Shown here one piece after another: positions 31,347-49,259 of a stretch of DNA of 49,259 bases. This DNA comes from Desulfuromonas sp. TF (lineage in GTDB: Bacteria > Desulfobacterota > Desulfuromonadia > Desulfuromonadales > ATBO01): the NCBI RefSeq assembly GCF_000472285.1, contig NZ_KI421425.1, forward strand, positions 1,145 to 50,403, read 5' to 3'. The position numbers and the translations under genes were made by a program. Every line of letters starts with the position of its first letter. Within the stretch, counting starts at the first letter, position 1. The notes under the pieces are model-generated. The model did not search any database, was not told the DNA's origin, and worked only from the letters and a program-made list of their open reading frames with translations.

Positions 31347-32795
31347 CTACCCCGCCGGCAAAAAGTCGATCGGGTACAGGATGGTCGTCTTCGGCACGCC
31401 TTCTTTCGGGCCAAAGTTGAACCTCTCGACGCGCTCGACGATCTGGGCCACCAGCTCGGCCGAGGCCAGGTCCGTAGACTCCACCCTGCACAGGGACACT
31501 TCGCCGCCCGGCTCAATGATGAGTCGCAGCAACATCTTCCCGCGCAACGTCGGATCCCTGCGGAGTTCCTTGTTGTAAATTCGATAGAGGGTCGCCTTGT
31601 AGCGATCGAATACGATCTGGATTTCCTCGTCCGTCCGGCCCGGACCGGGCCCATCGCTCAGCGGCCGTCCCGCCTCTTCCGCCAGACCCGCCACGGCGCT
31701 TTCCACCCGCGCGAAGCCCACTTTGCCGATGCCGTTTCCACCCTTTCCGCCGCCCCCGGCTCCGATGTTGCGGCTGACCGCGGCGCCTCCGATGCCGCCG
31801 CTGGAGCCCTTCGCCTGCATTGCCACCAGAGAGCGCTGGGCGCGGGCCTGCCCTGCCGCCTGCATGTTCTTGTCGTTCAGACGGGCCTCGGCGCCGAGCT
31901 TCGCCACGGGAGTTTCGTCCATGAGATCGGCAAAGGAGCTCTTGAACGCCAGCACGCCGGTGTTTTCAGCTTTTTTACGCGCCTCCTGCGTTCCGGCCGG
32001 TTTCGAGGCTTCTTTCGCCACCTTCACCTGCTTTTCCTTTGCCGGGCTTTTCTGCGGTTTTTCCGGTTTCTCAGGCTTCTCCGGTTCGGGCTCGGGCTTT
32101 TTCTCTTCCCTGGGCCGCTCCGGAATCGGCTCCGGTCGGGGTGGTTCCTTCTTGACCAGCATGGCCAGCCGGTCAGGAATTTCGACCACGACGGCCGAAC
32201 GGTCCGGGATCGGCAGGTTCACCAGGGGGATGAGAGAGCCGACAACTGCGCTCCAGAAGAGGGCAACCATCAGGAACCGGCGGAATCGCCTTTCGCTCTC
32301 GCCCTCGCCGGTCCAGGGCATGATCATCTGCCGGAATGGAACGGCAGAGATCTCCCGCTCGATGACGAATTCGTCCAGGCGCCGCTCTTCACGGGCGTAC
32401 GCCTGGCGAACCTCTTCGTACAGGCACTCCATTTCCTCGTAAACCCGGCCGGCCTGCGCCTGGAGGGATTCATGTCTTTCCCGGGCACCCCGGATCTCAC
32501 CCTCAAAGCGGACAATGCGTTCCCGAAGCCTCTCACGGTGCCCGGCGGTATCGGCGACCTGCGGGACGCCTTCCCAGAAGAGCTCAGCCGCTCCCATCTC
32601 TTCCAGCGCGTCGAGAGCGGTGCAGACATCCTGCAAGGCATCGAACCGCAGCCGGTCGGCGGAAAACGTTTCGAGCTCTGCCTCTGCAACGCGCAGCTCA
32701 CCTTCGAGCACATCGAGTTTTTCCCGAACTTGCCCGATCTGCGCGTTCAGCGGCTCCAATTCCTGTGTCAATATAGATGTATTCACGGCGTCCAC
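31347..32795 (-). CDS. TonB/AgmX-like energy transducer with N-terminal coiled coil
   Basis: A 482-aa inner-membrane protein. The N-terminal 170 residues are cytoplasmic coiled coil. A single transmembrane helix (about 174-192) is followed by a Pro/Glu/Lys-rich linker (about 217-258), a Gly-rich stretch, and a C-terminal AgmX/PglI or TonB_C-like domain (about 385-482, with RDPTLRGKMLLRLIIEPGGE). TonB proteins lack such a cytoplasmic part, whereas AgmX/GltJ of the Myxococcus gliding machine has one of another type. The start is GTG at 32795, one base after the exbD stop, with CAGGG upstream. It is probably the link between the ExbBD motor and outer-membrane partners. Confidence 0.85.
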   Translation of the reverse strand: MDAVNTSILTQELEPLNAQIGQVREKLDVLEGELRVAEAELETFSADRLRFDALQDVCTALDALEEMGAAELFWEGVPQVADTAGHRERLRERIVRFEGEIRGARERHESLQAQAGRVYEEMECLYEEVRQAYAREERRLDEFVIEREISAVPFRQMIMPWTGEGESERRFRRFLMVALFWSAVVGSLIPLVNLPIPDRSAVVVEIPDRLAMLVKKEPPRPEPIPERPREEKKPEPEPEKPEKPEKPQKSPAKEKQVKVAKEASKPAGTQEARKKAENTGVLAFKSSFADLMDETPVAKLGAEARLNDKNMQAAGQARAQRSLVAMQAKGSSGGIGGAAVSRNIGAGGGGKGGNGIGKVGFARVESAVAGLAEEAGRPLSDGPGPGRTDEEIQIVFDRYKATLYRIYNKELRRDPTLRGKMLLRLIIEPGGEVSLCRVESTDLASAELVAQIVERVERFNFGPKEGVPKTTILYPIDFLPAG

Positions 32796-32796
32796 G

Positions 32797-33291
32797 CTAA
32801 CCCTGCGTTGCCTTCTGAATGACGGCGAGAGAAATCCTGCCGTAACCGAAATGTGTACAGGTCGACATGACTTTCTTGAGGGCGCTGAAGGGAATCGACC
32901 TGTCCGCAAGAAGAGTGATCTCCTTGGCTTCCACGGCCGCCTTCGTACTTATCCCGATCACGTTCCGTTCCAGCCGCTCGAGCCGTTCGGTAATCGCCCC
33001 GATCGTCTCCTGTTCCGATGCAAGGAGTTCGGCCGTACCGATCACGACTTCTCCCTGGACCAGCACCTCCTCGGGACCGACCATGACCACCACCGTTTCC
33101 CGAGGCTTGGCCTCGACCACCGAATCGGGAAGCTTGATCTGCTTGGGGGTGGTCAGAACCTCGCTCGATGACGAGTTGGCGAGCAGGAAGAACACCAGGA
33201 TGGTGAAGACGTCCATCAGCGAGGTCAGGTTCAGGCCCGTCACCTTTTTCCTGTTGCGCCCCATTCGTTTGATGCGTCTGGAATTCCTCAT
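32797..33291 (-). CDS. ExbD/TolR-family biopolymer transport protein (first copy, Asp present)
   Basis: A 164-aa inner-membrane protein. It has a short basic cytoplasmic N-terminus, one transmembrane helix (about 22-40) with the conserved proton-carrying aspartate (Asp27 in LTSLMDVFTILVFF), and a periplasmic domain. With ExbB and the second ExbD it should form a proton-driven motor of the ExbBD/TolQR/AglRQS type. The ATG overlaps the stop of the second exbD by 4 bases (ATGA), so the two are translationally coupled. The TonB/AgmX-like gene starts one base after its stop. Confidence 0.92.
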   Translation of the reverse strand: MRNSRRIKRMGRNRKKVTGLNLTSLMDVFTILVFFLLANSSSSEVLTTPKQIKLPDSVVEAKPRETVVVMVGPEEVLVQGEVVIGTAELLASEQETIGAITERLERLERNVIGISTKAAVEAKEITLLADRSIPFSALKKVMSTCTHFGYGRISLAVIQKATQG

Positions 33292-33779
33292 GGCGCGTCT
33301 CCGATCGATATATTGGGGAAGAGCACGGTCTTCTGAACTTCTTCGCTCTTCGCATCCCTTACCTCGACCCCGCGCACCGTATCCATGACCTGAATCAGAT
33401 GGTCATACTCGATCTGGGGTTCCATCAGGACCGTCGCGTCGTCCTTCTGCGGGTAATCGGCTTTGAGGCGGCTGAGCATTTCGGAGAGCTTCTTCAGATC
33501 GTACTGATCGTCTTTTTTCGGAATCGCAGCCACCACGCTTGCCCCGTTGGCCAGCTCCAGTCCGGCCTTGCGGACAATCACCTCGATACTGAAGTCCGGC
33601 TGGGCCGAAGCCGCACCTCCCGCAGCCGTCGGTACGCTCAACTCCAGGATCGTCACACGCGAGAACACGGCGCTGATGAGAAGAAATGGGACGAGCACCA
33701 CCATCAGATTCAGGAAGGTGGTGATGTCGAGTTCAGGTGCCTCTCTCGTCCGCCTTTTGGAGTGATGTCGTCTGGCCAT
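33288..33779 (-). CDS. ExbD/TolR-family protein (second copy, Asn in place of Asp)
   Basis: A 163-aa ExbD-type protein, one transmembrane helix (about 20-40) and a periplasmic domain. At the position of the conserved aspartate the helix reads ITTFLNLMVVLVPF, so Asn24 replaces Asp. A nearby Asp18 lies before the helix. Without the acid this copy is not expected to carry protons in the usual way and may be a structural partner of the first ExbD. I start at the ATG at 33779, two bases after the exbB stop. An in-frame TTG six bases earlier is an alternative. Confidence 0.9.
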   Translation of the reverse strand: MARRHHSKRRTREAPELDITTFLNLMVVLVPFLLISAVFSRVTILELSVPTAAGGAASAQPDFSIEVIVRKAGLELANGASVVAAIPKKDDQYDLKKLSEMLSRLKADYPQKDDATVLMEPQIEYDHLIQVMDTVRGVEVRDAKSEEVQKTVLFPNISIGDAP

Positions 33780-33781
33780 GG

Positions 33782-34432
33782 TCAACTCGCCGGAAACTGG
33801 CGTTTGGCGAAATTGGAGATGGTGTTCAGCACCTTGACCGAGGCCATCTCAAGGCTGTCCACGACCTGACCGGTGGTCGAAGTCAGCTTGGCGTGAAGGA
33901 TCAGCAGAGGGATCGCGGCCATCAGACCGAAAGCCGTGGTGTTCATGGCCACCGAGATACTGGCGGAGAGCAGGTCGGCCTTCTCGGCGGGGTTCGCATT
34001 GGCCACCGCGGTGAACGCCTCGATCAGGCCCATGATGGTGCCGAGCAGCCCGAGCAGGGTGGCGATATTCGAGAGCAGAGCCACGTAGGGAGTGCGCCGT
34101 TCGAGCTGAGGGATGATCTCCATCATGCTCTCCTCCATGGCGATCTCGATGTCTTCGCGGCGCCGGACCGCTCCCTGACGCGCCAGTCCCATGCTCAGCA
34201 TCTGTGCGATGGTGGATTTGTCCTCGTCGACCATCTCCCGCGCCTTGTCGAACTGACCCTCGGCCAGCAGCGGGTGCACCTCGCCCCACATCCTGCGGTT
34301 GGCATTGCGGACGCGATTCAACTGGATCCATCGCTCGATGGCGATGGCCATGCCGAATGCGAATACGAGAAGAATGGGGTACATGAACAGCCCGCCCTTC
34401 TGAAAAAACGCCACAATAGAATAGATGCCCAT
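33782..34432 (-). CDS. MotA/TolQ/ExbB-family proton channel protein
   Basis: A 216-aa inner-membrane protein with three transmembrane helices (about 11-33, 104-126, 148-172). The family's MNTTAFGL motif in the third helix and the GLLGTIMGL motif in the second are present. By eye, the glutamate that E. coli ExbB has just before this motif is a valine here (ISVAMNTTAFGL). AGGAGG precedes the ATG at good spacing. It is the first gene of the motor module exbB-exbD-exbD-agmX-like, an order close to aglR-aglQ/aglS of Myxococcus. Confidence 0.93.
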   Translation of the reverse strand: MGIYSIVAFFQKGGLFMYPILLVFAFGMAIAIERWIQLNRVRNANRRMWGEVHPLLAEGQFDKAREMVDEDKSTIAQMLSMGLARQGAVRRREDIEIAMEESMMEIIPQLERRTPYVALLSNIATLLGLLGTIMGLIEAFTAVANANPAEKADLLSASISVAMNTTAFGLMAAIPLLILHAKLTSTTGQVVDSLEMASVKVLNTISNFAKRQFPAS

Positions 34433-34520: not shown

Positions 34521-34847
34521 CTACCGGTTTACTAAGTCAATCCGATGTTCCAGCGCGTGCGGCGACGCGGTCGATTTTGCAATGCTGACCTCATAGAAAT
34601 CGAGCTGCCGCCTGAAGACGTCCCGATCCACCGGAGCGGCCCCTTCGCTCAGCATCATTTTCAGACTGGTCTCCACGCCGACCTCGGAGCTTTTCCAGGG
34701 AACGATATACAGCGATTTCGGAGCTTCGTCGTTTCCGACAATGGACATCCCGGAAAGTTCCTTGGGTTCCGATCCGCTTACCCCGGCCATGGCGATGAAG
34801 GGCGACAGCAGGATCAGACACAGCGTGAGAAACATTACTCGGTACAT
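34521..34847 (-). CDS. Small exported protein of the envelope cluster
   Basis: A 108-aa protein with a signal peptide (about residues 1-21, ending AMA) and an otherwise unremarkable periplasmic part. I do not recognise it. It carries the motif VPWKSSEVG and a C-terminal FYEVSIAKS. The ATG at 34847 follows a strong AAGGAGGTGAC. It sits between the TPR lipoprotein gene and exbB, all on the same strand, so a role in the same machine is likely. The 88 bases to exbB show no other gene. Confidence 0.7.
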   Translation of the reverse strand: MYRVMFLTLCLILLSPFIAMAGVSGSEPKELSGMSIVGNDEAPKSLYIVPWKSSEVGVETSLKMMLSEGAAPVDRDVFRRQLDFYEVSIAKSTASPHALEHRIDLVNR

Positions 34848-34859
34848 AGTCACCTCCTT

Positions 34860-34975: not shown

Positions 34976-35668
34976 TCAGCCCCCACCTCCGAGCCGCATG
35001 CGCAGGTCGGCAATCCACAGTTTCATCTGCTCATCTTCAGACGCGGCCTCGCTGAAGATCTCGTACTGTTCAAGGGCGCAAGCCGGGTCGTTGAGATACA
35101 GGTCGCAGAGAATCCCGAGATTTCTGCGCGCCGGGAGGTACTCCGGAAAACGGGCGAGCGCCTTTTCGTAGATTTCCCGGGCCTCGGCAAAGCGGCCGCT
35201 TTTTCGCAGCAGCAAACCGTATTCATTGCTCGCCGCCGGGTGCTCGGGGACCAGCCTCAGGGCCGTCTTCAGATGCTGCTCGGCCGGCTCCAGCCTGTCG
35301 ATCGCGGCATAGGCCATCGCGATGTTGATATAGGGGGCCGTGACCTCCGGTGTACTCTCGATCACTTTTTCAAGAAGTTCGACGGCCTCCTCGAATTTCC
35401 GCTCTTTCATCATGGCGACGGCACGGTCGAAATCCCTGCGCGACTCCGCATCCAGACTCGGTGTTTCCCTGATGACGAATCCTTCCCGGCCGTCCTGCAG
35501 CCGCGTCACGGCGGGTCCCTCCACCGCGGTGGGAACCTGCTCAACAGGCTCCTGTTTGACCTTTTTCCCGCCGCTTGCGCATCCGGCAAGGAGCAAAAAC
35601 AGCATCAAAAGTGCCGCGCATCCGGCGGGGGTTCGTGCTCCTGACAGCCGCTTATCAATGATCCGCAT
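34976..35668 (-). CDS. TPR lipoprotein, 230 aa
   Basis: An exported lipoprotein: signal peptide with lipobox LLAGC (Cys30) and then a TPR array (about residues 70-215) including AAIDRLEPAEQHLKTALRL and ALARFPEYLPARRNLG. TPR lipoproteins such as GltE and AglT are also part of the Myxococcus gliding machine, so a scaffold role at the outer membrane is plausible. Its ATG overlaps the stop of the 1075-aa TPR gene by 14 bases, so the two are coupled. The product is followed by a 128-base gap with repeats. Confidence 0.85.
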   Translation of the reverse strand: MRIIDKRLSGARTPAGCAALLMLFLLLAGCASGGKKVKQEPVEQVPTAVEGPAVTRLQDGREGFVIRETPSLDAESRRDFDRAVAMMKERKFEEAVELLEKVIESTPEVTAPYINIAMAYAAIDRLEPAEQHLKTALRLVPEHPAASNEYGLLLRKSGRFAEAREIYEKALARFPEYLPARRNLGILCDLYLNDPACALEQYEIFSEAASEDEQMKLWIADLRMRLGGGG

Positions 35669-38600
35669 TGCCTTGCTCCTCGTTTTTGGATTGTTCGGCC
35701 GAATCTGCCTGATCAGTCAGATCGGTCGGATCCGGGACAGGTTGTCCCGCCGGCACCTCTTCCTCCACCGGCACCTCTTCTTCACCCTGAGGCGGTTCCA
35801 GGATCTGCGCCGACTCGGCAGGCAAGTCCGTCGCACCCGCAGCCTCCTCTTCGGCGACCGGGGGAGCGAGCGGCTCCGGCCTGTCGATGGCGAAGGTGTA
35901 GATCTCGAGAGAAGCGATGATGCCGCTCTCCGCTTCCGGTTTGTCATAGCGGGCGGGTATGAACCTGGCCAGTTCCACCAGGCTCTTTTCGATCCACCCG
36001 TTGTAGATGCCGAGGGAAATCAGCTCCAGGTTGCTCTCGTGGACGGCGATGGCCTTCTCCTCGAAGGGATAGGCCTGCTCCTCGATGGCCAGTTCGTACT
36101 GCTCCATCTCCAACGGGCTCAGTCCCTCGGGGCGCTCGGACTGCATCAGGGCCTTGCTGAAATGGGCGTAAATCTCGGCCAGATAGAAGGTCGCCGCGGA
36201 GGTGACATCCCCGACTTCATAATCAATGAGCCGGCTGAAATCCTGCGTCGCCGTCTTCATCAGGTCCTGTTTCCTGCGCAGGTTGACCTCGAAGGGTTTC
36301 ACCAGCCGGACCCCGGCGAAGCGCTCATAACTCAGCTCGGCCAGTACCAGAGCGGCATTCGCGGCGAGATAGCGGGTCCGCGGCGTGCGCTCGTCAACGG
36401 CAGCCGTCTCGATGGCGACGATCCGGCGGAGTTCATCCAGATAAGGTTCCCTCTCCCCCTGTCCCTTGAGGATTTTGGCGATTTTGCTGCGCGTCTCCAG
36501 GTTGATTTCCACCGGCTGCGGGAAATAGTCCACGTAGCGCCGGTAAACCTCCAGGGTGCTCGCCCTGTCCCCCGCCTCCTCGTGCAACTGCGCCGCGATC
36601 AGCAGGGCCTCCCGGCGAAGCTCCTCGTCCCCGGACTCCCTCTCGATCCGTTCGTACTCCCTGGCCGCCTGGGCAAGCTTGCCGTCCTCCCGGTAGACGA
36701 AGGCGATCTTCTTGGTCACCTCGGGCTGCAGCTCGTGTCCGGGGAAGGTGGCGCGAAATCCAGACAGCACGGCGGCCGCCTCTTTCCACGCCTTGAGCTG
36801 GATCAGGGCCGCGGCCGCATCGTATTCGGCGGTCGGCCTGATCTTCGAAGTCGGCGCCATGAGCCCCACTCGCAGGAAATGATCCGCCGCCACGCGGTAG
36901 TCCTCGATGGCGTTCGCCTCTTCCCCCTGCTTGTAGATCGCTGCGGCGAGATTGTCGATCAGAGCGCTGCGCGCCTTGTCGCCTTCGGGGAGCAGGTCCA
37001 GCACCTTCACATAGGCGCCTTCGGCTTCGCCGTAAAGAAGCAGGTCGTAGGAAGAGTGGGCGACGACCAGCCAGGCAGCTCGCAGGATATCCGTCTCGGC
37101 GCCGGGAAAGGCTTCGATGAGCTTTTGCGCGGCGGCCAGCGCCTGCTCATGGTCGCCCATGTCGTAGAGATCGTCCGCCGCCGCTCCGAGGACGATTGCC
37201 GCCTTCTCGTGCTCCGGAAAGGCTTCGGTGAACTTCAGCGAACTGCGGACAATCTCTAGCCTGAGCGGCTTGCGCTCCTCCGGCGAAACGGCGCCGAGAT
37301 GCTCCCGGTAGGCGTAAACCGCCGCGTAGCCCGCCGTGGAGGATTTCTCGTGGCGAGGATAGCCGTAGGCCGTCTTCTCGTATTCAACGGCAGCCTGCCC
37401 GAATGAGCGATTCTCCAGAAGAATGTCCGCCAGCTGGTAGTTGATGCCCGGCGATTCGACATCCTGCGGGAAGGAGCCGAGGAACTCCCGGTACCAGCGC
37501 AGCGCCTCGGCGAAGTTCGCCGCCTTCTCTTCGACGCGCTGCGGGTTCTGATAGAGCGCGTGGTAATGATTCGCCAGGTCCGTCAGGTTGGTCTTCAGAA
37601 AGCCGAGGACTTCCGGACGGGCCTCCGGTTCGAAATGCCGCCAGTATTCGGCCTTAAGACCGTAGTTGGTGGCGAAGGCCTTTTTCGAGTCGATGACGAG
37701 CGTGGGGAAGCCCCCTGCGATATTGATCTCGATCACCCGCATGTGAAAGTTCGGCGACTTTCTGTGGAAAGGATTGTCGCCTGCAAAGGCCTCGTATGTG
37801 GCGACGGCGTCGCTGTAGCGGCGCTTAGCGACGTAATATTCGGCAAGATTGCCGTAGATGCTGTCCTCGTAGCCGCGTTTGCCGTAACGGGAGAAGTATT
37901 CGACCACGAAATCGGCGCCGCCGAGATTGGAAAAACCCAGGCTGATGACCCGGAAGGTGTCATCCATGCGTTTGCGTTCGGGCTCGTCTTCGGTCTGATC
38001 GAAGTCGTATCCCGCGGACACCTTGGTGTCGAGGAGAGCGATGAACTGGTGCAGGGCGTCTTCGTAGAGTTCCTGCTTGTAGAAGGTCCAGCCGAGCTTG
38101 TACAGGGCCAGTTGAAAGAAGGACGAACCGGCGCCGATGCCGACGATGCTCCTGTAGGCGTCCTCGGCATCCAGGTATTGCCGGCGGGTGAAGAAGTATT
38201 CGGCGCGGCGGAACTGCACCTCATCAAGGTACCGGGAGCGCGGGAAGTCGCTCACCAGCCGGTCCATGACCTCCATCGCCTCATCGATCCGCCCCAGCTC
38301 CTCGTAGGCGCGGGACATCTGATACAGCACCTGATCGTTGCGCTCGTAGTACGGATACTCCTCGAGGAGCTTCCTATAGAGTGCAATGGCCTCGAGGGCT
38401 CCCGCCCTTTCCAGATCGTCCTCCCCTGCCCCGGGGACTGGCCCCTCCCCTGCAGTGCCGGTCGTTTTTGGGCTGCGGGTCGCCCGGCCTTCAAAAGCCG
38501 CCTCGGACTCTTCCTGCGCCGAAGTGGATGCCAAGGCCTGCTCCCAAGGCGCGACCTCCGGCCGCGGCGCGGATTCCGGGGCGGGCAAGGACGCTGCTGC

Positions 38601-38882
38601 AGGGTCCGTCTCCTCGCCTTCCCCCGTGATGAGCCCGTATTCCTTCTCGACCTTCAGGTCCGCAAGGCGGCGGATCGCCTCTGGCGCCAGAGGGGAGTCC
38701 GGCGTTTCGTTCAGAAAGCGCTGATAGCTCTCCATCGCCTTCTCGAGCCCGCCGTCGAGTCTCTCCTCCTTGATTTCGATCTGACGGTTACGCAGCTGGG
38801 CGATCGTTCCCCTGTCGTCGAGCGACGAGCAGGCGGACAATATCACCGGAAGCGCCAGGATGAAGTATCGCGACGCGTTCAT
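35655..38882 (-). CDS. Large TPR lipoprotein, 1075 aa
   Basis: An exported lipoprotein with lipobox LSAC (Cys18), so it is anchored in a membrane after secretion. An acidic, Ala/Glu/Pro-rich low-complexity part (about 85-160) is followed by many tetratricopeptide repeats (about 165-850), such as EEYPYYERNDQVLYQMSRAY. The C-terminus is again acidic and low-complexity, ending DPTDLTDQADSAEQS. TPR arrays bind other proteins, so it is probably the main periplasmic scaffold of the machine. The start overlaps the 635-aa TPR gene stop (ATGA), and the end overlaps the next gene. Confidence 0.85.
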   Translation of the reverse strand: MNASRYFILALPVILSACSSLDDRGTIAQLRNRQIEIKEERLDGGLEKAMESYQRFLNETPDSPLAPEAIRRLADLKVEKEYGLITGEGEETDPAAASLPAPESAPRPEVAPWEQALASTSAQEESEAAFEGRATRSPKTTGTAGEGPVPGAGEDDLERAGALEAIALYRKLLEEYPYYERNDQVLYQMSRAYEELGRIDEAMEVMDRLVSDFPRSRYLDEVQFRRAEYFFTRRQYLDAEDAYRSIVGIGAGSSFFQLALYKLGWTFYKQELYEDALHQFIALLDTKVSAGYDFDQTEDEPERKRMDDTFRVISLGFSNLGGADFVVEYFSRYGKRGYEDSIYGNLAEYYVAKRRYSDAVATYEAFAGDNPFHRKSPNFHMRVIEINIAGGFPTLVIDSKKAFATNYGLKAEYWRHFEPEARPEVLGFLKTNLTDLANHYHALYQNPQRVEEKAANFAEALRWYREFLGSFPQDVESPGINYQLADILLENRSFGQAAVEYEKTAYGYPRHEKSSTAGYAAVYAYREHLGAVSPEERKPLRLEIVRSSLKFTEAFPEHEKAAIVLGAAADDLYDMGDHEQALAAAQKLIEAFPGAETDILRAAWLVVAHSSYDLLLYGEAEGAYVKVLDLLPEGDKARSALIDNLAAAIYKQGEEANAIEDYRVAADHFLRVGLMAPTSKIRPTAEYDAAAALIQLKAWKEAAAVLSGFRATFPGHELQPEVTKKIAFVYREDGKLAQAAREYERIERESGDEELRREALLIAAQLHEEAGDRASTLEVYRRYVDYFPQPVEINLETRSKIAKILKGQGEREPYLDELRRIVAIETAAVDERTPRTRYLAANAALVLAELSYERFAGVRLVKPFEVNLRRKQDLMKTATQDFSRLIDYEVGDVTSAATFYLAEIYAHFSKALMQSERPEGLSPLEMEQYELAIEEQAYPFEEKAIAVHESNLELISLGIYNGWIEKSLVELARFIPARYDKPEAESGIIASLEIYTFAIDRPEPLAPPVAEEEAAGATDLPAESAQILEPPQGEEEVPVEEEVPAGQPVPDPTDLTDQADSAEQSKNEEQGNADH

Positions 38883-40786
38883 TGCTCCACCCCTTCCGCC
38901 CCTTCTACCCGGTTCTCGCCCTGCGCCCGCGCGGCGCGGTCGTAGCTGTCCGCCAGGGCGAAACGCGCCTTGATCTGGAACTCTGCGAGCCGGTCGCGGC
39001 GTATGGTGAGTTCATTCACGGCCATCACTTCGAGCATATGCCCCTGGCGGGCCTTCAGCACCGTCACGTTCTCCCTGGCCTCCTCGATGCGGATCCGCTG
39101 ACGGCCGATCGACTGGCTGTAACCCTGATAGCTTTGCGTGGCGGCCTGGCGGGTGCGCACAAAGGCGGTGTACTGTCTGTTCAACCGATCGATGACGTGA
39201 TTCAGTTCCCGAAGGTTCTTCCAGGCTTCGGTCAGGCGTCGGTCGTAATCGGTATGAATGTTCCAGTCCAGCACCCCCCGCAGACGACGGATCCGTGCCT
39301 CGGCCTCGCCGGGGATCTCGCCTCCGACGGCGGCCAGGGGCTGCTCCATCCCCGCAATCCGTTCCCTGAAGATCCGCTCCTCCGCCGTCGCCAGGTAATC
39401 AGGCCTGGGTGCGGTCAACATGGCCTGGAGACGCTGTTCGATACGGTCCCGCTGCTCCAGGCGCAGGCGCATCTGCGAGTCGAGCCGCCGGAATTCCCGA
39501 TCGGTCTCAGGGAGCAGGGGCTGGTAATACGCCCGGCGTTTTTCGATGATCTCCTCGAAAGCGTTCAGATCCTCCTCCCAGACATCCAGCTTCCTGTGCA
39601 GCTGCTCAAGATCGAGATAGTTTTTCAAGGATTCCTGGAAATCGTGGGAGGCCATCAGTTCGAGCAGGTAGTAAGTCTCGGGCGCCTCCGGCAGCTCACG
39701 GAGCCTGACCACCCAGTTGGAATCCTGTTTCAGTTCCTCACGCACCAGGGCGCGGAGAAATTTGCCTTCGCGGATGCTCCTGATCGAAGCGCCGAGCTTG
39801 TCGACCTCCGTGCCGAACGCCTCCAGGGCGCTGCCGTACATCCGTGCGGCCTTGCTGTGCACCCCCAGCTTTCCATAGGCATAGGGGACGGCGAGCATGG
39901 CTTCCTGCACCGCCGCGTCCGTCACCTCACGCTCGGCGAGGATGCTCCAGGGCACCAGCGCTCTGTCGAATTTTCCCCGGAAGGCGTCGGCCCATCCCGA
40001 GCCGAGCAGCGCCCGGTTGGAGAACGGTCCGCTCAGGCGCACCCGGTCGAGCACCCCTTTGCCTCCCTCGAAGTTGTCTTCCTCCAGCAGCTTGTTGCCA
40101 AGGACGAGGTTCGATTTGTCCTTGATCGCCAGGGTGGCGGGGCTGTCGCTGTCGATGAGGCCGGTGCGGTCGAGAAACCGCCGCCCCTCATCCTCTTTTC
40201 CCTCCCTCAGCAGCGCGATACCGAGGTTGTAGGAGGTAAAGCCTTCCAGGCTCTTCGCATCCTGAAGCTCTCTCAGAATATCCGCGGCCTCGGCGAAGCG
40301 GCCGTTCGCCATGAAGATCTGTGCCCGCAGGAATGAGAGATCGTCGCGAATGGTTGCGGGCACGCTCCCCCTGATGCGCTCCACAGCATGCAGGGCATTG
40401 AGCGGCTGGTCTTTCTGGAAGTAGATCCGGGCCAGACGGAAAATGGCCTCGTTGCGCACCGGCTCCTCTACGTTTCCCTCGATGACCGCCTTGATTGCTC
40501 GGCCGGCCCGGTGATGCATCCGGTAGGCCAGTTCAAAATCCCCCACGGCGAATTCGGCCTGGCCGATGTGGCGGAAAAGGGAGTCGAGTTCCGGCTCGTC
40601 GAGTCCATGGTGCTGCTCCAGCTCGGTGTCGAGCCGGGCGACGGCATCGAACCACTCCCCCTGGAAGGCGTGATACAGAGCCTCTCCGAAATAGAGGTCC
40701 TTCAGCTCCTCGGGCGCGGTGGTGCTGGCGGCCAGTGAAGGAGAAGCGAGCAGCAGAATTGTCAGGAGAATCAAAAATCTCATCAT
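38879..40786 (-). CDS. Exported TPR protein, 635 aa
   Basis: It has a signal peptide (about residues 1-20), then TPR-like helical repeats over the first half (EALYHAFQGEWFDAVARLD, AIFRLARIYFQKDQPLNALH) and long alpha-helical or coiled-coil segments in the second half. I place the start at the ATG at 40786. The longer reading runs back through the intergenic palindrome at 40804-40861, which gives an implausible SYRTYGSYRS peptide. It lies between the small exported gene and the 1075-aa TPR gene, overlapping the latter by 4 bases. Confidence 0.82.
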   Translation of the reverse strand: MMRFLILLTILLLASPSLAASTTAPEELKDLYFGEALYHAFQGEWFDAVARLDTELEQHHGLDEPELDSLFRHIGQAEFAVGDFELAYRMHHRAGRAIKAVIEGNVEEPVRNEAIFRLARIYFQKDQPLNALHAVERIRGSVPATIRDDLSFLRAQIFMANGRFAEAADILRELQDAKSLEGFTSYNLGIALLREGKEDEGRRFLDRTGLIDSDSPATLAIKDKSNLVLGNKLLEEDNFEGGKGVLDRVRLSGPFSNRALLGSGWADAFRGKFDRALVPWSILAEREVTDAAVQEAMLAVPYAYGKLGVHSKAARMYGSALEAFGTEVDKLGASIRSIREGKFLRALVREELKQDSNWVVRLRELPEAPETYYLLELMASHDFQESLKNYLDLEQLHRKLDVWEEDLNAFEEIIEKRRAYYQPLLPETDREFRRLDSQMRLRLEQRDRIEQRLQAMLTAPRPDYLATAEERIFRERIAGMEQPLAAVGGEIPGEAEARIRRLRGVLDWNIHTDYDRRLTEAWKNLRELNHVIDRLNRQYTAFVRTRQAATQSYQGYSQSIGRQRIRIEEARENVTVLKARQGHMLEVMAVNELTIRRDRLAEFQIKARFALADSYDRAARAQGENRVEGAEGVEQ

Positions 40787-40885: not shown

Positions 40886-41401
40886 CTACCAATCCTTCAG
40901 CGTGATGACATGGTTCGCCAGCGTGATTTCGACGATCTCGGGGCCGACGTCCTTGTGAATCGTGAAGCTCTCCGTCTTCTGGATATCGCTGCCCCCTTTC
41001 GATTTGCCGGTGAGGGTCACCTGCATCTCATGTTCACCGGTGCGGATATTGCCGGTGTGGATGCGCTGCACGCCTCCCTTCCGCAAGGCTTCGAGTTCCT
41101 TGAAGGTGTAGAGGTGATGCGCCACAGGCTTGCCGCCCAGCTGGATCTCGACCGAATCGAGGCGGAACGTCTCGCCGTCGGCCAGGGATACGAACACCGC
41201 GAGCTGGGTATGGGACGGATAGAGCAGCTTCTCTTCCAGCCGGCTCAGTTCCGCCGCAATGCCGAGAACGTCGCTCTTGATCTCCTGAACCTGTTCGTCC
41301 AGCCCCTTGATCTGCTCCCTTGAGACTTCCTCGGCATGAAGAGGGGAGGTCAGCAGGAGCATCGAAACCGTTAAAATGATTAGTCGTGAGAATTTGAGCA
41401 T
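40886..41401 (-). CDS. Small exported protein with coiled coil, 171 aa
   Basis: It has a signal peptide (about residues 1-23, ending LHA), a short coiled coil (about 30-60) and a beta-rich C-terminal domain containing LDSVEIQLGGKPVAHHLYTF and HTGNIRTGEHEMQVTL. I do not recognise the family. The domain resembles a small carbohydrate- or ligand-binding-type sandwich, but I cannot name it. The ATG at 41401 follows CAGGTGG. It precedes the 635-aa TPR gene by 99 bases, a gap that holds the CCCATAGGTC palindrome. Confidence 0.75.
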   Translation of the reverse strand: MLKFSRLIILTVSMLLLTSPLHAEEVSREQIKGLDEQVQEIKSDVLGIAAELSRLEEKLLYPSHTQLAVFVSLADGETFRLDSVEIQLGGKPVAHHLYTFKELEALRKGGVQRIHTGNIRTGEHEMQVTLTGKSKGGSDIQKTESFTIHKDVGPEIVEITLANHVITLKDW

Positions 41402-41451
41402 GATTGCCACCTGTAATTAGTTGTGCGGTTTTTGAAAAAACCAAGATCTTG

Positions 41452-41572: not shown

Positions 41573-44500
41573 TCACATCTTCCCGATAATATTGATGAAC
41601 AGCCCCTGGTGGTCGTAGTCCAGATCGGTCAGGTCATCCGAAAACTTGCTGAAGTTGTACCCGGCGCCTACCTTGACGTGATTGCCGATGTGCCGGTAGA
41701 TGGTCACGAGCGCCCCGCCCAGCCGGTCTTCGGCATCGGGAAGGTCGAGCATGCGCCCCTCGAGGAGGGCATCCCAGCGGTGGAGGAAGTGCCAGTCGGC
41801 ACGCAGCACAACAAGATGGGCCCGGCTTTCGAAGAATTCCCGATCGACACGGTCCTGGCTCACCTCGCCCTGGCGGTAGGCATACTTTCCCCCCACGGTC
41901 CAGCGGGGCGTCACGTCGTACATGACATCGACGGCTCCGATGTGGCTGCGCTGGATGACGGTGGAGCCCGAACCGGAGGCGGTCAGCTGATCGGCGGCCG
42001 GGACGTTGTAGAAATAGGTGTATTTGAACAGCGCATTCAGGCGGTCGTGATGGACGGGGCGATAAGCGTAGCCCAGGACCGCCTCCGTGAAGTCGCCGTC
42101 GTAGAACTGCCCCTGCGAACTCTCGCTGTGGGCGTAGTTGAGTTTTCCGATGAGACGCCAATCCGGTGACAACTGGTATTTGAGGCCGTTTTTCAGCAGC
42201 CAGGTGGTGCGCCTCGTGCTCGTGGCGTCCGGCTGTTCCGAGTCGTCCACGCGGTATTCGACGGCACTGGCGATCTTCAGCCGGTCGAAGCCGTAGCCGA
42301 CGCTCACCCCCGCCGCCGTTCTCTCGAGCTCGGCCCCCGTCTGATTATCCGTGAGGGTTCCGAAGTCGACATTCGCACCGAGGTGGAGGCGGTCGGTGGG
42401 GGCGAGATCCACGCCGGTCGAATGCATCAGCCCTGTCGGGATGTCGCCATGGGTGTAGCGCTCCTCCAGGTAGACGCTGGCGCTGTCCGAATACCGCGTG
42501 CGGAAACCGGAAGCCATGTTCCCCTTCCTGGCCCGCAGACCGTTGTCGGTGCGCTCGTTCTCCAGGGCGTAGTTGAGATAGAGCGTGGTGCGGTCGGAGT
42601 AGAGGTATTCCGTCCCCAGCCGTCCGGCCGCCCCGAGATCCCCCTCCGACACTTCGCCGTTCACCTTGAACCTGTCGGTCACCCGGTAACTGCCGCCGGT
42701 ACCGATCCGGCCGTTATCGTCACGGTTGCCGGTCGTCTTCAAGGACTCCTGTACAAAGCCGTAGGCGCTCCAGCGCGCGCGGGAATCGTACAGCAGCTGA
42801 AGCACCGCATCCGTCCGATCTCCCTCTTCCTGGGTCAGGGGGATCTGCGCGGATTTGTCCTTGCGGCTGTCCTGGCGCACGCCCGAGCTCACTGTCCAGT
42901 GCTCGTCCAGCTGGACATCGAGATTCAGCTCGCCGGCCACGGTCTCGAGCCCTTCGCTCTGAATCAGTTTGTCGCCCTTGATCCTCAGGCCCACCCGGTC
43001 GGAGAACGGCAGCTCCGCGGTGCCGCCGTATTGAGTCGTGTCCCGGTCGGTGAGCAGGCCCGGCGCCGAATAACCGGCTTCGAGGTCCTGGTGGTAGAGG
43101 GTGATCCTCCCCCGCCCCTTTTCAAAGAAGTCCCTGAATCCGATGCTGGCATCGGTGCGATAGGCCCGGGCGTCGATCTCCGAGCCGTCCAGGGGATCGG
43201 GCGCACCGAAATTGAAACCGCCGTCGCTGGAGGCCGTCTCGAGCAGCCCCGGCCCTTCGCTGCGGCCGGCTTCGAGCCTCAGCCAAGACTCGGCCGATTT
43301 GCGCAGGGTCACGTCCGCCCCGCCCAGGGTATTTTCGTCCCCGGCTTCTTCACTCCGGCTGGCGGTCACTCCGATTTTGAGGTAGTCGTTGAACCAGTAG
43401 TGAACCCGGCCCCCCGTCGTCAGGTTGTCCGGGTCGTCGAGGCCGGGGGTGAATTCGTAGCGGACCACCAGGAAGGCGGGGTGGCCGCTGATCGAGCCGC
43501 TGTGCACCAGCAGATCGTCGTCCGCCGTCGATGCCAGGGGCTGGGTCAGCAGCAGGCGCCCCTGCAGGTAATCGATATCGTAATCGAGCACCGGGGTCAG
43601 GTTCTTCACGCCGAGCACCAGGCCGGAGTCCTTGTCGCGGATTTCGATGCGCACCCGCTCGGAACCCTCGAGGACGTCCTGGCGGCGCAGGAAATAGAGA
43701 GAACCGCCGGTTCCCCTCAACTCGTCGCGTCCCGCCACCGTGCCGGGCTCGGCGGCGAACCCGTCGGCCATGAAACGCTCCTCGCCGAAGCTCGTGGCGT
43801 CAGCGCTCTGGGTATGCAGGTTCGCGCCGTAGAGCCCACGGTCGACGTGCGCCAGGGTGTTGTCGGTATAACCGATCTTGAAGTTGCCCCAGAGTCCGTA
43901 GTTCGCGCCGTTTTTCAATTTGACGTAGAATTTGCCGCGGGTCGGAGCGTCCTCCTCGACGGTGCCGTCATCGCCGTAGGTCGGGAAATGGTAATCCGGG
44001 TCAATGCGCCTGAACAGCGCCTCGGGCGACTTGTCGAGGAAGTTGCTGAAGATCTCGTCCAGCGGACCTTCGCGCGTATCGGCGCTCGCCGTCAGCCCCC
44101 AGCCGGCGCCGAATTTGCCTCTGGTGTAAAACGCGAGCCGCCCCTGAATGTCCACATCGTCGTCGTACTGGGGTTTTTCCGGGGCGAGGAGCTTGGCCGG
44201 GCCGTGGGTCTTGTTGGCGGATAGGGTCAGATCGGCGATCCCCACCGTGAACCAATCGCTCTTGTTCAGCGCCAGGTCGCGCAGGAACAGCTCTCCATTC
44301 CCTGATTTGTCGAGAACGGCCACCTCGACGGTATGCATGCCGTCCGGAAGGATTTCCTCGGCGACGAAACGACCTTCCCCGTCCACCGGTACGGCAAAGC
44401 CGGCCAGCCACACCCCGTGTTCGGCAGGGATCGCGGTACCGTGGGCCTGCACCGTACCGCCGCGAAGCTCTATGTTCCGGCTGCCGATACGGCTCTCGCC

Positions 44501-46654
44501 ATATCCGACCAGCAGTTCCTCACGGGGATTCGCCGTCGTCACGGACGGGTCGATCCGGTCGACCACCCACAGTGGCTGGGCCAGCGTTTCGTCGAAGCGC
44601 CCCTTCTCGTCATAAACCCGAACCAGGTATTTCAGCTGGCGCCCAGGCGCGGAGTAGGAATCGAAGTCGGGCTGCCACTGCGCCATGCCGTCGCCGTCCA
44701 TCTCGATGACGGCGAGGGGCGTATCGCGGTCGGACTGTTCCTCTTCGAAAATCCTGACCTCAGCCCGCTCGATGAAGCTGCGATAGTTGGTGTAGAGGCG
44801 GAATTGGACCAGGTTCTCGGCAAATTCGGTATCCTCCAGGTCCTGATAACGGATGGTCCGCGGCCAGGCCGTCACGTTGAGCCGCGGCTCCAGCTTCAGG
44901 GTGTCGTGCTTGAACTCGACCTGGGCCTTTTCGAGGGCTACGTCGATGCAGCGCTGCACATCGGGGATACTCTTCCCGGGATCATCGATCGGTTTTCCGT
45001 CGACCGTGATGCGCATGAGATTCAGGCCGAAGGGATTGGCCGGGTTGACCTCACGGGTCAGACGGGTGATGTCTACCCCTTCATAGTCATCGAGAATGGC
45101 CAGCTCGTCGTAGACCACCTGCACCATGACCCGCGAAGTATCCGACTCGATGAAGCCGGCGTTGACCACGTCATCGGACTGGACGTAACCGCGCCCTTCG
45201 AATTCCGCCTGCGGCTCCGTCAGCGTCATCCGGTCGCTTACGGTCGCCATGGCCCGGCGGGCCCGTGCCGTGGACCAGCCGATGTCGTCCCCATAGACCG
45301 CGGCAGTCCGGCGGTCCAGTCTTTCGTTGCGGGTATAGCCGACGAACCGCAGGCGCACATTGGTCTTGTCCTTGATCTCATCCATGATCCTGCGCAAACG
45401 CTCGGTGGTGCCGGCGGGGAGAACCGGCTTGCCGTCTTCGAACAGGATCGGATCGATGCCGCCCGACGGCGAATCGTAGACACGGGTGACCATTTCGGCG
45501 CCGGCGGCGTCCGGGCACAGCTGCGGCTCATCGGGCAGGTCCTGCAGCGGATCGTCATGCCAGAATTCCACTTCGATGCGGCGATTGAGCGCCCGACCCT
45601 GTTCCGTATCGTTGGAGGCGGCAGGCTGCGCCGCCCCCTTCCCCTCGCCTTCAACGGCGCCGTTGGGCAGGCCCAGACCTTCCTGAACAGCGAGGGCGAC
45701 ACGACGGGCCACCGCCTTCGACAACCCGACATGGTTACCGTAGATGCGCTCGTCACGCCCAGCCAGAGGGCTGTTATCAGTGTAGGCGGTGAACTTGACG
45801 ACCACGTTCTGCTTGCCGCCGAGGTTCCTCAAGGCATATCTGACCTGCTGCTGAAATTCTTCCGGCACCGCCAGCATCCCTTCGTCGTAATGCAGAGGCG
45901 CAATCAGGTTCTTGACGCGGGCGCGATGGGAGTGCCCCTCCTTGTATCGCAATTTACAGACAGTTTCGGTACGGCAGATCTTGAGGCGGTTTACCTCGCG
46001 AGGGACGATTACTTCCTTTTCGGCCAGCTTTTCACCGATCTCGTCATACCAGACCTGAACTTCCACCCGGCGGTTGAGCCGCCGTCCTTCCTCGGTCGCG
46101 TTGCTGGCAACCGGCCGGCTCTCGCCAAGCCCTTCATAGGAGATCGCTTCGGGGGGAAGATCGAGCGCCCGCTGGAAATATTCGGCGGTGGTCCCCGCCC
46201 GCTCTCGCGACAGGCCGGTGTTGTCGCCGTAGAGCTCCTTCAGGGGTCCGCTGAGCGACAGGGAGTCGGCGTGACCGACAAAGTGGAGGCGCACGTTGTT
46301 GCGGCCGCGCATGCTCTCGAGGACCGTGCGAAGCCGCTCAAGATAATCCTCGGGGATCTCCGCCTCGCCGAGACGGAAGTGGATGGGGGGTACCATGTTC
46401 TCAAGCTTGATCGTCCGGACGTCCGGCTCGACGACCTGCCGAATTTCCGTGCGATCGCCCTGGTCCTCATCGAAAATGGAGGGATCGAGCAGCCAGGGCG
46501 TGAAGACCTGGTCGGAAGGCAGATGCATTTCGGACGCCTCGCCGCACGAGGCCGTTTCCCAGACACCGGCATGCGAGTCCGCGGCAACGGCAGTAGCGGC
46601 AACTGCCGAGAAAGCACTGAACATAAATAAGATGGCGATACCGCGCTTCAACAT
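41573..46654 (-). CDS. Outer-membrane protein with three OmpA-like domains and a large predicted beta-barrel
   Basis: A 1693-aa exported protein. Signal peptide (about 1-25). Three OmpA C-terminal-like domains (about 60-205, 230-365, 370-520); the first two have the LNRRVEVQVW / LNRRIEVEFWH segments that contain the peptidoglycan-contacting arginine, and the third is degenerate. Next come Ig-like beta domains (about 620-760), then a long region of alternating strands (about 780-1693) that looks like a barrel and ends in GLFINIIGKM. So it could bind peptidoglycan and also span the outer membrane. The start is ATG at 46654; longer starts cross the palindrome. The gene lies between the DUF11 gene and a small exported gene. 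Confidence 0.85.
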   Translation of the reverse strand: MLKRGIAILFMFSAFSAVAATAVAADSHAGVWETASCGEASEMHLPSDQVFTPWLLDPSIFDEDQGDRTEIRQVVEPDVRTIKLENMVPPIHFRLGEAEIPEDYLERLRTVLESMRGRNNVRLHFVGHADSLSLSGPLKELYGDNTGLSRERAGTTAEYFQRALDLPPEAISYEGLGESRPVASNATEEGRRLNRRVEVQVWYDEIGEKLAEKEVIVPREVNRLKICRTETVCKLRYKEGHSHRARVKNLIAPLHYDEGMLAVPEEFQQQVRYALRNLGGKQNVVVKFTAYTDNSPLAGRDERIYGNHVGLSKAVARRVALAVQEGLGLPNGAVEGEGKGAAQPAASNDTEQGRALNRRIEVEFWHDDPLQDLPDEPQLCPDAAGAEMVTRVYDSPSGGIDPILFEDGKPVLPAGTTERLRRIMDEIKDKTNVRLRFVGYTRNERLDRRTAAVYGDDIGWSTARARRAMATVSDRMTLTEPQAEFEGRGYVQSDDVVNAGFIESDTSRVMVQVVYDELAILDDYEGVDITRLTREVNPANPFGLNLMRITVDGKPIDDPGKSIPDVQRCIDVALEKAQVEFKHDTLKLEPRLNVTAWPRTIRYQDLEDTEFAENLVQFRLYTNYRSFIERAEVRIFEEEQSDRDTPLAVIEMDGDGMAQWQPDFDSYSAPGRQLKYLVRVYDEKGRFDETLAQPLWVVDRIDPSVTTANPREELLVGYGESRIGSRNIELRGGTVQAHGTAIPAEHGVWLAGFAVPVDGEGRFVAEEILPDGMHTVEVAVLDKSGNGELFLRDLALNKSDWFTVGIADLTLSANKTHGPAKLLAPEKPQYDDDVDIQGRLAFYTRGKFGAGWGLTASADTREGPLDEIFSNFLDKSPEALFRRIDPDYHFPTYGDDGTVEEDAPTRGKFYVKLKNGANYGLWGNFKIGYTDNTLAHVDRGLYGANLHTQSADATSFGEERFMADGFAAEPGTVAGRDELRGTGGSLYFLRRQDVLEGSERVRIEIRDKDSGLVLGVKNLTPVLDYDIDYLQGRLLLTQPLASTADDDLLVHSGSISGHPAFLVVRYEFTPGLDDPDNLTTGGRVHYWFNDYLKIGVTASRSEEAGDENTLGGADVTLRKSAESWLRLEAGRSEGPGLLETASSDGGFNFGAPDPLDGSEIDARAYRTDASIGFRDFFEKGRGRITLYHQDLEAGYSAPGLLTDRDTTQYGGTAELPFSDRVGLRIKGDKLIQSEGLETVAGELNLDVQLDEHWTVSSGVRQDSRKDKSAQIPLTQEEGDRTDAVLQLLYDSRARWSAYGFVQESLKTTGNRDDNGRIGTGGSYRVTDRFKVNGEVSEGDLGAAGRLGTEYLYSDRTTLYLNYALENERTDNGLRARKGNMASGFRTRYSDSASVYLEERYTHGDIPTGLMHSTGVDLAPTDRLHLGANVDFGTLTDNQTGAELERTAAGVSVGYGFDRLKIASAVEYRVDDSEQPDATSTRRTTWLLKNGLKYQLSPDWRLIGKLNYAHSESSQGQFYDGDFTEAVLGYAYRPVHHDRLNALFKYTYFYNVPAADQLTASGSGSTVIQRSHIGAVDVMYDVTPRWTVGGKYAYRQGEVSQDRVDREFFESRAHLVVLRADWHFLHRWDALLEGRMLDLPDAEDRLGGALVTIYRHIGNHVKVGAGYNFSKFSDDLTDLDYDHQGLFINIIGKM

Positions 46655-46684
46655 CAATTCCGTCTTTAAAAAGAGGCTTTCAGA

Positions 46685-46722
46685 GGTCCTGTAGGACCCA
46701 TAAGACCTATGGGACCTATTGA
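46685..46722. repeat. Palindrome overlapping the DUF11 gene stop
   Basis: GGTCCTGTAGGACC is a self-complementary hairpin, followed by CCCATAAGACCTATGGG, another palindrome. The right part overlaps the stop codon of the DUF11 gene (46716-46718). Related sequence is at 40804-40861 and 34953-34962. Confidence 0.7.
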
Positions 46723-49259
46723 ACCGGCCCGCCTTTGCGCCAGAAGACCTCGGTCTCAACCGTCAGCCGATAGCCGCGGTCCGAGCGGCCCCAGAGATCG
46801 GCGATCTCCTTCTTCAGAGCCTTGAGACGCTGAGTTACCAGCCCTTCACGCTCCACATCCGCAAGGTAGGACAAGCGCAGCACGGACGGCGCTTTCTTCA
46901 ATTCTTCCAGCAGTTGCCCGATCTTCGGCCGCCACTGCAGGCGCAGCTCCGTGGTCTCCGGCTCGAATACCCCGTCGGCGATATCGATGGAAACCACGTG
47001 GTGGATCGTCGCGCCGAAGTTGAACTTCATCATCTTGCCTCGCGTGGCGCGCTGTACCCGCGGATTTTCTGTGGTCAGGCGATATCCGGTAGGCAGGCTG
47101 CGATCGTCCAGCTTCAGGATGAAGTTGCTCCCCCGATCCTCGTCGGGAACCACCGCACAGGTGATATGGAAGCGGCCGTGTTCGTCGGCGGTTCCGATCA
47201 AGCCGCGGGCCGTCACCACGCGGACCCCGGCCAGCCCCTGCTCGCCCTCGTCCTGGTATCCGTTGAGGTTGCGGTCGTCGAATACCTTGCCGATGACGTC
47301 GGTGCAGTCGAAGGTCGGGTCGGGAATGACCCGCACGGTCGCCGTCGCTTCGCCGGAGACGCTCCCTCCGGTGGCGGTATTGAGCACCTGCGCGCGATTG
47401 ACGTATTCACCTTCGGAGACGCCGGCGCCGACGATCAGCAGCAGCTGGAGCGTACGGCTGCCGTTGACCGGCAGTTCGAGGCCGTCCCAGAGCAGCTCCC
47501 GGCCGCTGGCAGCCGGCTCCAGCGGATCGCCGTCCAGGCGGGCGGAGCCTTCCACGTATTTGAAACCCGCCGGGAAGCGGTCGACGATTCCGACGTCCTG
47601 GAGCGGCACGCCGAACACGTTGTTTACGGTGATCGTGTACGGCACCAGCTGTCCCTTGGTCACGTTGATCAGCGATGAGGTCTTGGTGATCGCCACGGCC
47701 CCATCCAGTGCCGGATCGATGGGGATGGCGTTGTTGAACACCTGGCTTTCACCGGGAATGCTGCCGTTGCTGAGGGTGAGGTGGAGGTGATAGGTGGTGC
47801 CGTCCGTGCGCGGCGCCATCGACGGCGGCGGCACCGAAGCGGAAGCCGTCACCTCGCAGTATTCGGCGGTGGCCGGCACCGCGTCGGCCGCGCTGCCGGG
47901 GCAGGCGGGGACGGAGAAGGGCGCCGTCGTTCCGTCGCTCGCCGGGGGAATGATCCCGGACGGCATCGCCATGTAACCGCTCGCCGGAGGGATCACCTGG
48001 AGGAGATAGCCGCCGCCGGGCGGGCAGGACGGATCGCTGAAATTGACGTCGAGCTTGTAGAACCCGTTCTGTGCGGTGACCTGGTTCTGCTGAACCGGGT
48101 CGTCGAAGCACCGGTCCGGCAGCGGCGTCCCGGTCGCGGCGCTCACCACCGCAAGCCTCGCGCCGGAAACGGATGACCGCCGAACGGAGTCGTAAACCGC
48201 GCCGTTGGGGGTGATCGGCAGATTCAGGTCCTGGAGATTGCCGCCGGAAGCGACCGTCACGCCGCTGATGCGCTGCGGACCGTTGATGAAGGGCGAATCG
48301 GCAGTGCCGAGCGAGGCGGTGTTCGGGCCCGCCCCCGAGGCGCGGAAGCGAAGTTCATAGGAATCGGCCGTCGCCTCGTTGGGGGCGAGGCCGCTGAGAC
48401 GGTAGACGCCCTCCCCGTCCGTCAGCACGGTGGCGAGAAGCCGGCTGCCGCGATAAAGCTCGACCGACCACCCATCGAGGCTCTGCTCGGCTCCGTCGTG
48501 GAGCTTGTCCAGATTCGCGTCGTGCCAGACCCGGCCGTTGAGGATACCGCTCCCCGGGATGCCTCCGATATTCACCGACGCACTGTCCGACGCGGTCTGA
48601 TCCGTGCCCCAGGTCACCTCCGCCGTGTTGGTGATCGTCGTCCCCGTCGGAACGGACGGGCCGATGTTGGCGCGGAACCGAAGGACGGCCGTCGCGCCCG
48701 GCGGCAGGTCGCCACAGGTCGCCGTCAGCACCGGCGCCGCGTAGCCGATGCCGCCGGTCAGACCGTCGAGGGTCGCGGAGCCCGGCACCAGGGGATCGGG
48801 ACCAAGCGGTCCCAGATCATCGATAATCACCACGTCCGTCGCCGTTACGGTGCCGATATTGGTAACGCGGATCGTGTACTCCAGCTGTCCGCCGGCCTGC
48901 GCCGCGCCGCCGATCGCGAAGGCTTCCTTGGTGATGGTCAGCTGCTGGGATCCGCCTACGACCACCTGCGTCGGCTGGTATCCGTTGGCGGGATCACCGT
49001 CCGCGTCGGTCGGCAGCGTCGGCAGCTCACTGAAGGTCACGTTCCCCTGGTTGATGATGATGGTCCCTGCGGGCACGCCGTCATTGACTCTGGCCTCGAA
49101 GGTGATCACTGCGCTGCCGCCCGCCGATACGGTCCCGGCGCCCGGTTGATCAGACGACTGAACCATCAGTCCGGAGATGAGGGGCGACAACCCGCCGTCG
49201 GCACCCAATGCCGCGCCGTTCAGACGAAGGGAATCCTCCACGTAGCCGGTATCGGCGGG
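46716..49259 (-). CDS. DUF11/SdrD B-like surface protein, 5' end outside the window
   Basis: The reading frame is open to the right edge, so only the last 847 codons are seen. The protein has DUF11-type repeats (LTITKEAFAIGGAAQAGGQL, EYTIRVTNIGTVTATDVVII), an SdrD B-like/CNA-B module (NGRVWHDANLDKLHDGAEQ and IGKVFDDRNLNGYQDEGEQG), and a C-terminal part without repeats ending in VFWRKGGPVQ. DUF11 and SdrD B-like domains usually form rod-like stalks of large surface proteins. No anchor or sorting signal is visible at the C-terminus. It is the first gene of the cluster that can be read, 61 bases before the barrel gene. Confidence 0.87.
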   Translation of the reverse strand, partial: PADTGYVEDSLRLNGAALGADGGLSPLISGLMVQSSDQPGAGTVSAGGSAVITFEARVNDGVPAGTIIINQGNVTFSELPTLPTDADGDPANGYQPTQVVVGGSQQLTITKEAFAIGGAAQAGGQLEYTIRVTNIGTVTATDVVIIDDLGPLGPDPLVPGSATLDGLTGGIGYAAPVLTATCGDLPPGATAVLRFRANIGPSVPTGTTITNTAEVTWGTDQTASDSASVNIGGIPGSGILNGRVWHDANLDKLHDGAEQSLDGWSVELYRGSRLLATVLTDGEGVYRLSGLAPNEATADSYELRFRASGAGPNTASLGTADSPFINGPQRISGVTVASGGNLQDLNLPITPNGAVYDSVRRSSVSGARLAVVSAATGTPLPDRCFDDPVQQNQVTAQNGFYKLDVNFSDPSCPPGGGYLLQVIPPASGYMAMPSGIIPPASDGTTAPFSVPACPGSAADAVPATAEYCEVTASASVPPPSMAPRTDGTTYHLHLTLSNGSIPGESQVFNNAIPIDPALDGAVAITKTSSLINVTKGQLVPYTITVNNVFGVPLQDVGIVDRFPAGFKYVEGSARLDGDPLEPAASGRELLWDGLELPVNGSRTLQLLLIVGAGVSEGEYVNRAQVLNTATGGSVSGEATATVRVIPDPTFDCTDVIGKVFDDRNLNGYQDEGEQGLAGVRVVTARGLIGTADEHGRFHITCAVVPDEDRGSNFILKLDDRSLPTGYRLTTENPRVQRATRGKMMKFNFGATIHHVVSIDIADGVFEPETTELRLQWRPKIGQLLEELKKAPSVLRLSYLADVEREGLVTQRLKALKKEIADLWGRSDRGYRLTVETEVFWRKGGPVQ

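Follow-up and report, generated by a model that had tools for sequence, protein, structure and literature searches.

The Agl-Glt and Agl-Nfs machines of Myxococcus xanthus deliver motor work to the cell surface, and the core complex behind both gliding and sporulation (aglR, aglQ, aglS, gltC, gltD, gltE, gltG and one unnamed gene, forming one region) has been reported in Geobacter and Gammaproteobacteria with its function unknown (Luciano et al., 2011; PMC3169522). That study reported glt genes of Group A from Myxococcales and Bdellovibrio only, and its authors thought it unlikely that the core could drive gliding by itself (PMC3169522); the core occurs in many non-gliding bacteria, with no job assigned to it. 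Two kinds of giant adhesin offer further comparisons: SiiE of Salmonella pathogenicity island 4 (SPI-4), an immunoglobulin (Ig)-repeat protein encoded with the SiiAB proton motor, which is listed among the motors serving type I secretion (PMC12204202), and the CLIPPER (DUF11) fibrillar adhesins such as Acinetobacter B9T28_05395, which have a DUF11 stalk and a C-terminal OmpA-like anchor (PMC12617251). Here we describe an eleven-gene cluster of Desulfuromonas sp. TF, in which a known motor core is joined to a previously unreported surface half and control. It lies in a window of 49,259 nucleotides, the whole stretch of DNA that was analyzed (contig NZ_KI421425.1, G000:C14:1145-50403), from a 4.4 Mb genome. 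With some reserve, we favor the view that the cluster encodes a trans-envelope motor, powered by protons and under cyclic-dinucleotide control, which works on a giant CLIPPER (DUF11) adhesin held by an outer-membrane barrel that is bound to peptidoglycan.

A known motor core beside a giant protein and a barrel

All eleven genes lie on the minus strand and run from the right end of the window down to position 31347 with overlaps or short gaps, in the order given by the initial annotation. The first two encode the giant DUF11 protein and the barrel protein, and the other nine make up the core. The small exported protein sm9 (174 residues; 40886..41410), whose gene opens the core in most relatives, is followed by the exported tetratricopeptide repeat (TPR) protein TPR8 (635 residues from ATG 40786; 38879..40786), the long TPR lipoprotein TPRL (1075 residues; 35655..38882), the shorter TPR lipoprotein TPRs (230 residues; 34976..35668) and a small exported protein, sm5 (about 108-110 residues, starting at 34847-34853; 34521..34853). 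An ExbB/MotA/AglR-like proton channel subunit (216 residues; 33782..34432), two ExbD-like stators (165 residues, 33288..33785; 164 residues, 32797..33291) and a TonB/GltG-like transducer (482 residues from GTG 32795; 31347..32795) complete the set. The starts of the barrel, TPR8, sm5 and transducer genes are refined here relative to the first reading.

This nine-gene core fits the complex of Luciano et al. (2011) in composition, with ExbB, two ExbD, a TonB/AgmX-like transducer and three TPR proteins in one operon, and also in taxa, and its genes are likewise grouped in one region in our Geobacter and Gammaproteobacteria loci (PMC3169522). The initial annotation knew of no described system with this set, a claim that fails for the motor and TPR part. 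The 2011 text makes no mention of a giant DUF11 protein, barrel or riboswitch, and GltG has an FHA domain that is missing from our transducer. A literature search for the full set returned only that study and work on Myxococcus (subscription journals were thinly covered, and an earlier description is possible), and no paper was found that links the giant, the barrel or the riboswitch to the core complex. The surface half also separates our cluster from Agl-Glt and Agl-Nfs, with which it shares the type of motor and transducer: here it consists of a giant adhesin and an OmpA-barrel, and none of the Group A genes gltA, B, F, H, I, J and K is present among the operon genes (the genome itself was not searched).

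Profile searches with Pfam and NCBIfam backed the domain calls made earlier for DUF11 and SdrD_B, the TPR proteins, MotA_ExbB, both ExbD proteins and AgmX/PglI. PF01618 (ExbB-like) and PF02472 (both ExbD-like proteins) scored above cut-off. The transducer comprises an N-terminal coiled coil, one transmembrane helix, a Pro-rich stretch and an AgmX/PglI C-terminal domain (NF033768, 55.4 bits, cut-off 40); it also matched the GltG model NF033760 with 64 bits over residues 246-520, below the full-length cut-off of 650. No Pfam domain, and hence no FHA, was found in its N-terminal part, which reads as coiled coil. The proposal of an AglRQS/Glt-like motor was supported by this GltG/AgmX-type C-terminal domain. 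TPR8, TPRL and TPRs are candidate counterparts of GltC, GltD and GltE, respectively, their TPR and lipobox features fitting these proteins, and the match to the GltE model was weak (E=3.5e-4). The proton-site Asp is invariant in one ExbD (81/81 sequences; 32797..33291) and replaced by Asn in the other (79/82 sequences; 33288..33785), so the stator pair is asymmetric. In Myxococcus, AglQ D28 is required for motor activity and D28N abolishes proton conductance (PMC3858216). Two other identities were considered for the motor and rejected: scores were far under the TolQ/TolR cut-offs, with a complete Tol-Pal set elsewhere (contig C11), and the ExbB, ExbD and TonB equivalogs of the import system all fell under their curated cut-offs.

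The giant gene is cut by the end of the window, which falls at an assembly gap of 54 N within the gene and leaves its 3' part in the window (847 residues; 46716..49259). The gene resumes past the gap, in flanking sequence L005, up to an in-frame start at L005:11309 (55165 in extended window numbering), giving about 1,952 residues before the gap, 847 after it and about 2,800 in total. A hydrophobic signal sequence (judged by eye) is followed by a DUF11 array that lies in part beyond the gap; DUF11 scored 150 bits in one part of the gene and 80 bits in the other, and SdrD_B was also matched. Giants of relatives range from 1,719 to about 4,000 residues; their stalk varies, and the C-terminal 850 residues are conserved. 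The last ~100 residues are predicted to form strands and helices in the β-α-β-α-β order of the OmpA fold (predicted local distance difference test, pLDDT, about 70-91), an OmpA likeness by element order in the model that has no Pfam OmpA match, and the protein ends in a conserved FWRRGGPP-type tail. The Ig domain ahead of this region matches the CLIPPER crystal structure 9IFR, from a Gram-negative fibrillar adhesin also ending in an OmpA-like domain (PMC12617251). Unlike CLIPPER adhesins such as B9T28_05395, the giant has a separate barrel protein and a dedicated motor encoded beside it.

The barrel protein (1,693 residues from ATG 46654; 41573..46654, the longest open reading frame beginning at 46759) consists of a signal peptide, OmpA-type peptidoglycan-binding domains, an Ig-like region and a C-terminal part whose final 480 residues model as a large outer-membrane β-barrel. 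Three OmpA domains had been proposed; two are significant stretches and the third repeat is degenerate. Structural matches of the barrel were tied among TonB-dependent receptors, ushers, MtrB and LptD, and we claim no family. SprA was absent from the matches listed, to which we attach no weight. We rejected a TraAB outer membrane exchange identity, as the match to the TraB equivalog reached 42 bits (cut-off 700) and covered the OmpA part only.

Conservation in two gene orders

The surroundings of the TPR8 gene were compared in 20 genomes from the order or class of the source strain. The whole set, from giant to AgmX, kept a constant order wherever contigs were long enough, and the genes flanking it in the window were not shared; this block conservation, seen in about 19 of the relatives, indicates that the cluster is not a chance grouping; in one genome (G016) ExbB was relocated behind AgmX. 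Across 200 genomes of the class, TPRL (match >700 bits) and the cognate barrel (>1,900 bits, or truncated where the contig stops) were each present in 34, with 33 common to both, counts that come from related genomes and are not independent events. The two exceptions were G031, with the core only, and G028, where the barrel is accompanied by a fragment of TPR8 at the end of a contig.

A scan of named genomes yielded 80 loci with TPRL. The barrel was upstream of the core at every Desulfuromonadia-type locus with upstream room (29/29). A different arrangement was found in Gamma- and Betaproteobacteria, where a profile-recognized giant lay directly after AgmX, or divergently before the core, in 34/37 loci with AgmX and some flank; the divergent form was that of Curvibacter and Methylibium. 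Among the remaining three, one (L126) has a large exported reading frame in that place and two have <500 nucleotides left. An orthologous barrel (1,586 to 1,923 bits) was present in all Gamma- and Betaproteobacteria genomes tested (12/12), beyond the giant wherever the contig allowed. Retention of the same partners under a changed gene order is an argument for a functional connection. The initial annotation had taken the eleven genes as one machine and noted that they would be unrelated neighbors if the DUF11 and barrel genes were not conserved beside ExbBD/AgmX in relatives. They are conserved there, in two phyla and two gene orders, in agreement with one functional unit.

Riboswitches before the giant and the core

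A c-di-GMP-I-GGC riboswitch (75 bits; c-di-GMP, cyclic di-GMP) is located 153 nucleotides before the giant gene on the minus strand (L005:11463-11539) and is followed by an intrinsic terminator. Since it lies outside the window, a scan of the window alone for Rfam families and tRNAs gave no matches. The genome holds 28 GEMM-I type aptamer matches, 13 of them above the gathering score and some paired, and the one before the giant scores best. Where sequence before the giant was available in Desulfuromonadia, at least one aptamer above the gathering score was found (12/13 loci, several in tandem; those of G012 and G026 once longer flanks were taken), and at the thirteenth locus (G044) a remnant of 17 bits occupies the expected place. 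An intrinsic terminator lay 31-45 nucleotides past the aptamer in 11/12 of these loci. We then built a model from the Desulfuromonadia operon aptamers and ran it on 63 loci, obtaining 21 matches, of which 12 immediately precede a gammaproteobacterial giant and 6 immediately precede the core; the G044 remnant is among the 3 that remain. Aptamers precede the giant and/or the core in 13 gammaproteobacterial loci, with some Gammaproteobacteria having them before both transcription units. Covariation supported the aptamer fold, with 14 pairs changed on both sides and controls much lower.

These aptamers resemble the c-di-GMP-I (GEMM-I) riboswitches of Geobacter and relatives in family (Rfam RF03167/RF03168) and tandem arrangement, and we found no report of this operon as a target in the literature on those riboswitches. 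The position that we align with the putative G20 of Vc2 reads G in every operon-linked copy where that letter can be read, unlike the A of cyclic GMP-AMP (cGAMP)-type switches. As judged from this nucleotide, c-di-GMP is favored over cGAMP as the putative ligand. We considered cGAMP since Geobacter uses it, and the G disfavors it. One paralog locus is an exception: in G031, the aptamer that precedes a fused-barrel/DUF11 locus (L087:14755-14842) has A at the selectivity position and may sense cGAMP instead.

Proposed action of the motor on the adhesin, and its rivals

The AgmX/PglI-GltG-like transducer, the proton-site Asp and the domains of the giant and barrel point to a proton-driven pull on an adhesin held in a wall-bound barrel. 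The giant would be a fibrillar adhesin displayed at the surface, built of an N-terminal head, a stalk of the isopeptide type and, at the C-terminus, an OmpA-like domain by which its foot stays in the periplasm. Pinned to peptidoglycan by its OmpA domains, the barrel may serve as the outer-membrane pore or socket that releases and holds the fiber. The ExbB/ExbD/ExbD motor would draw on the proton gradient, and the GltG/AgmX-like transducer and TPR proteins could relay its work across the periplasm to the barrel or the adhesin foot, such that the cell pulls on, deploys or moves the fiber. Transcription would pass through the c-di-GMP-I riboswitches. Of the functions suggested in the initial annotation, adhesion gained support in the form of adhesin handling, and export of a surface polymer received no specific support. 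More tentatively, the cluster may represent an envelope machine of a class of its own, a winch driven by protons that pulls on or pays out a giant isopeptide-stabilized adhesin threaded through a wall-anchored barrel, in which an Agl/Glt core was added to an older, self-sufficient giant/barrel pair and which is riboswitch-activated in attached cells.

Several observations weigh against the favored reading. The barrel model is weak (predicted template modeling score, pTM, 0.39), and in G031 the nine-gene core has no cognate giant or barrel adjoining it. Several genomes of the class that have no core also encode a giant and a barrel of 'type 2' (894-1,292 bits for the barrel), and no motor gene was present at the giant/barrel locus in any of the five examined (G104, G140, G257, G200 and G035; two-gene loci L218/L219, L220/L221, L222, L223 and L224). 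Such pairs indicate that giant and barrel form a unit alone, to which the motor looks like an addition; the motor may have another target or a purely modulating role. Type-2 giants lacked the FWRRGGPP tail where their end was read, and the type-2 barrel has one OmpA domain in both scanned, with an additional N-terminal SPOR domain in G140. The G104 giant contains nine DUF7933 and four SdrD_B stretches. Fusion of a DUF11/SdrD module, an OmpA domain and a barrel in one protein, which counts in favor of that reading, was observed in paralogs of the source genome (contig C10) and G031. The C10 locus (G000:C10:313736-326668; L084/L085) encodes four DUF11 proteins and a 1,998-residue fused SdrD/DUF11-OmpA-barrel protein, and it sits behind two c-di-GMP-I-GGC aptamers without a motor.

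A first alternative is an export machine in which the motor energizes secretion of the giant through the barrel and is idle once the fiber is out, as for SiiAB/SiiE. The giant exported protein and large barrel always occur together, usher and LptD pores are among the barrel matches, and SiiAB belongs to the proton motors that serve type I secretion (PMC12204202). Our cluster differs from that system in having an OmpA-barrel and TPR proteins and no ABC exporter. Since related giant/barrel pairs have no motor gene at the locus, export seems possible without one, unless Tol/Exb motors serve in trans, and we regard this explanation as doubtful. It is improbable that the whole adhesin/barrel complex is instead transported along the cell surface, as Agl-Glt and Agl-Nfs move slime or spore-coat glycan: the motor core is the same as in Glt/Nfs by domain and published operon content, but the restricted range of Group A genes and the published judgment on gliding by the core alone (PMC3169522) speak against it, and a barrel with OmpA domains would be expected to stay tethered to the wall and not to travel. 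Tol-Pal-like envelope maintenance with the giant as a passive passenger gene, already disfavored, is very unlikely: ExbB/ExbD/TonB-like proteins, OmpA domains and YbgF/CpoB-like TPR proteins are present, yet the genome has its complete Tol-Pal set elsewhere and our set is patchy (34/200 genomes of the class) and tied to the giant.

A single giant adhesin, a single barrel and a cyclic-dinucleotide switch are associated with the core in two phyla and two gene orders, which hints at the role of the core outside gliding bacteria. This question is now addressable in culturable Geobacter relatives and Gammaproteobacteria, and the motor-less sibling pairs provide a natural comparison for the contribution of the motor.

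Scanning for sigma-70 promoters and terminators gave matches not above chance. Short palindromic repeats of the type CCTATAGG/CCCATAGG occur in the gaps 5' of TPR8 (40814-40837) and 5' of the barrel gene (46691-46719), with 6 matches against 0.05 expected. Outside the window, on the upstream side of the operon, L005:14787-19283 encodes a 1,498-residue protein that reads as a CheB/CheR-PAS-histidine-kinase-receiver hybrid.

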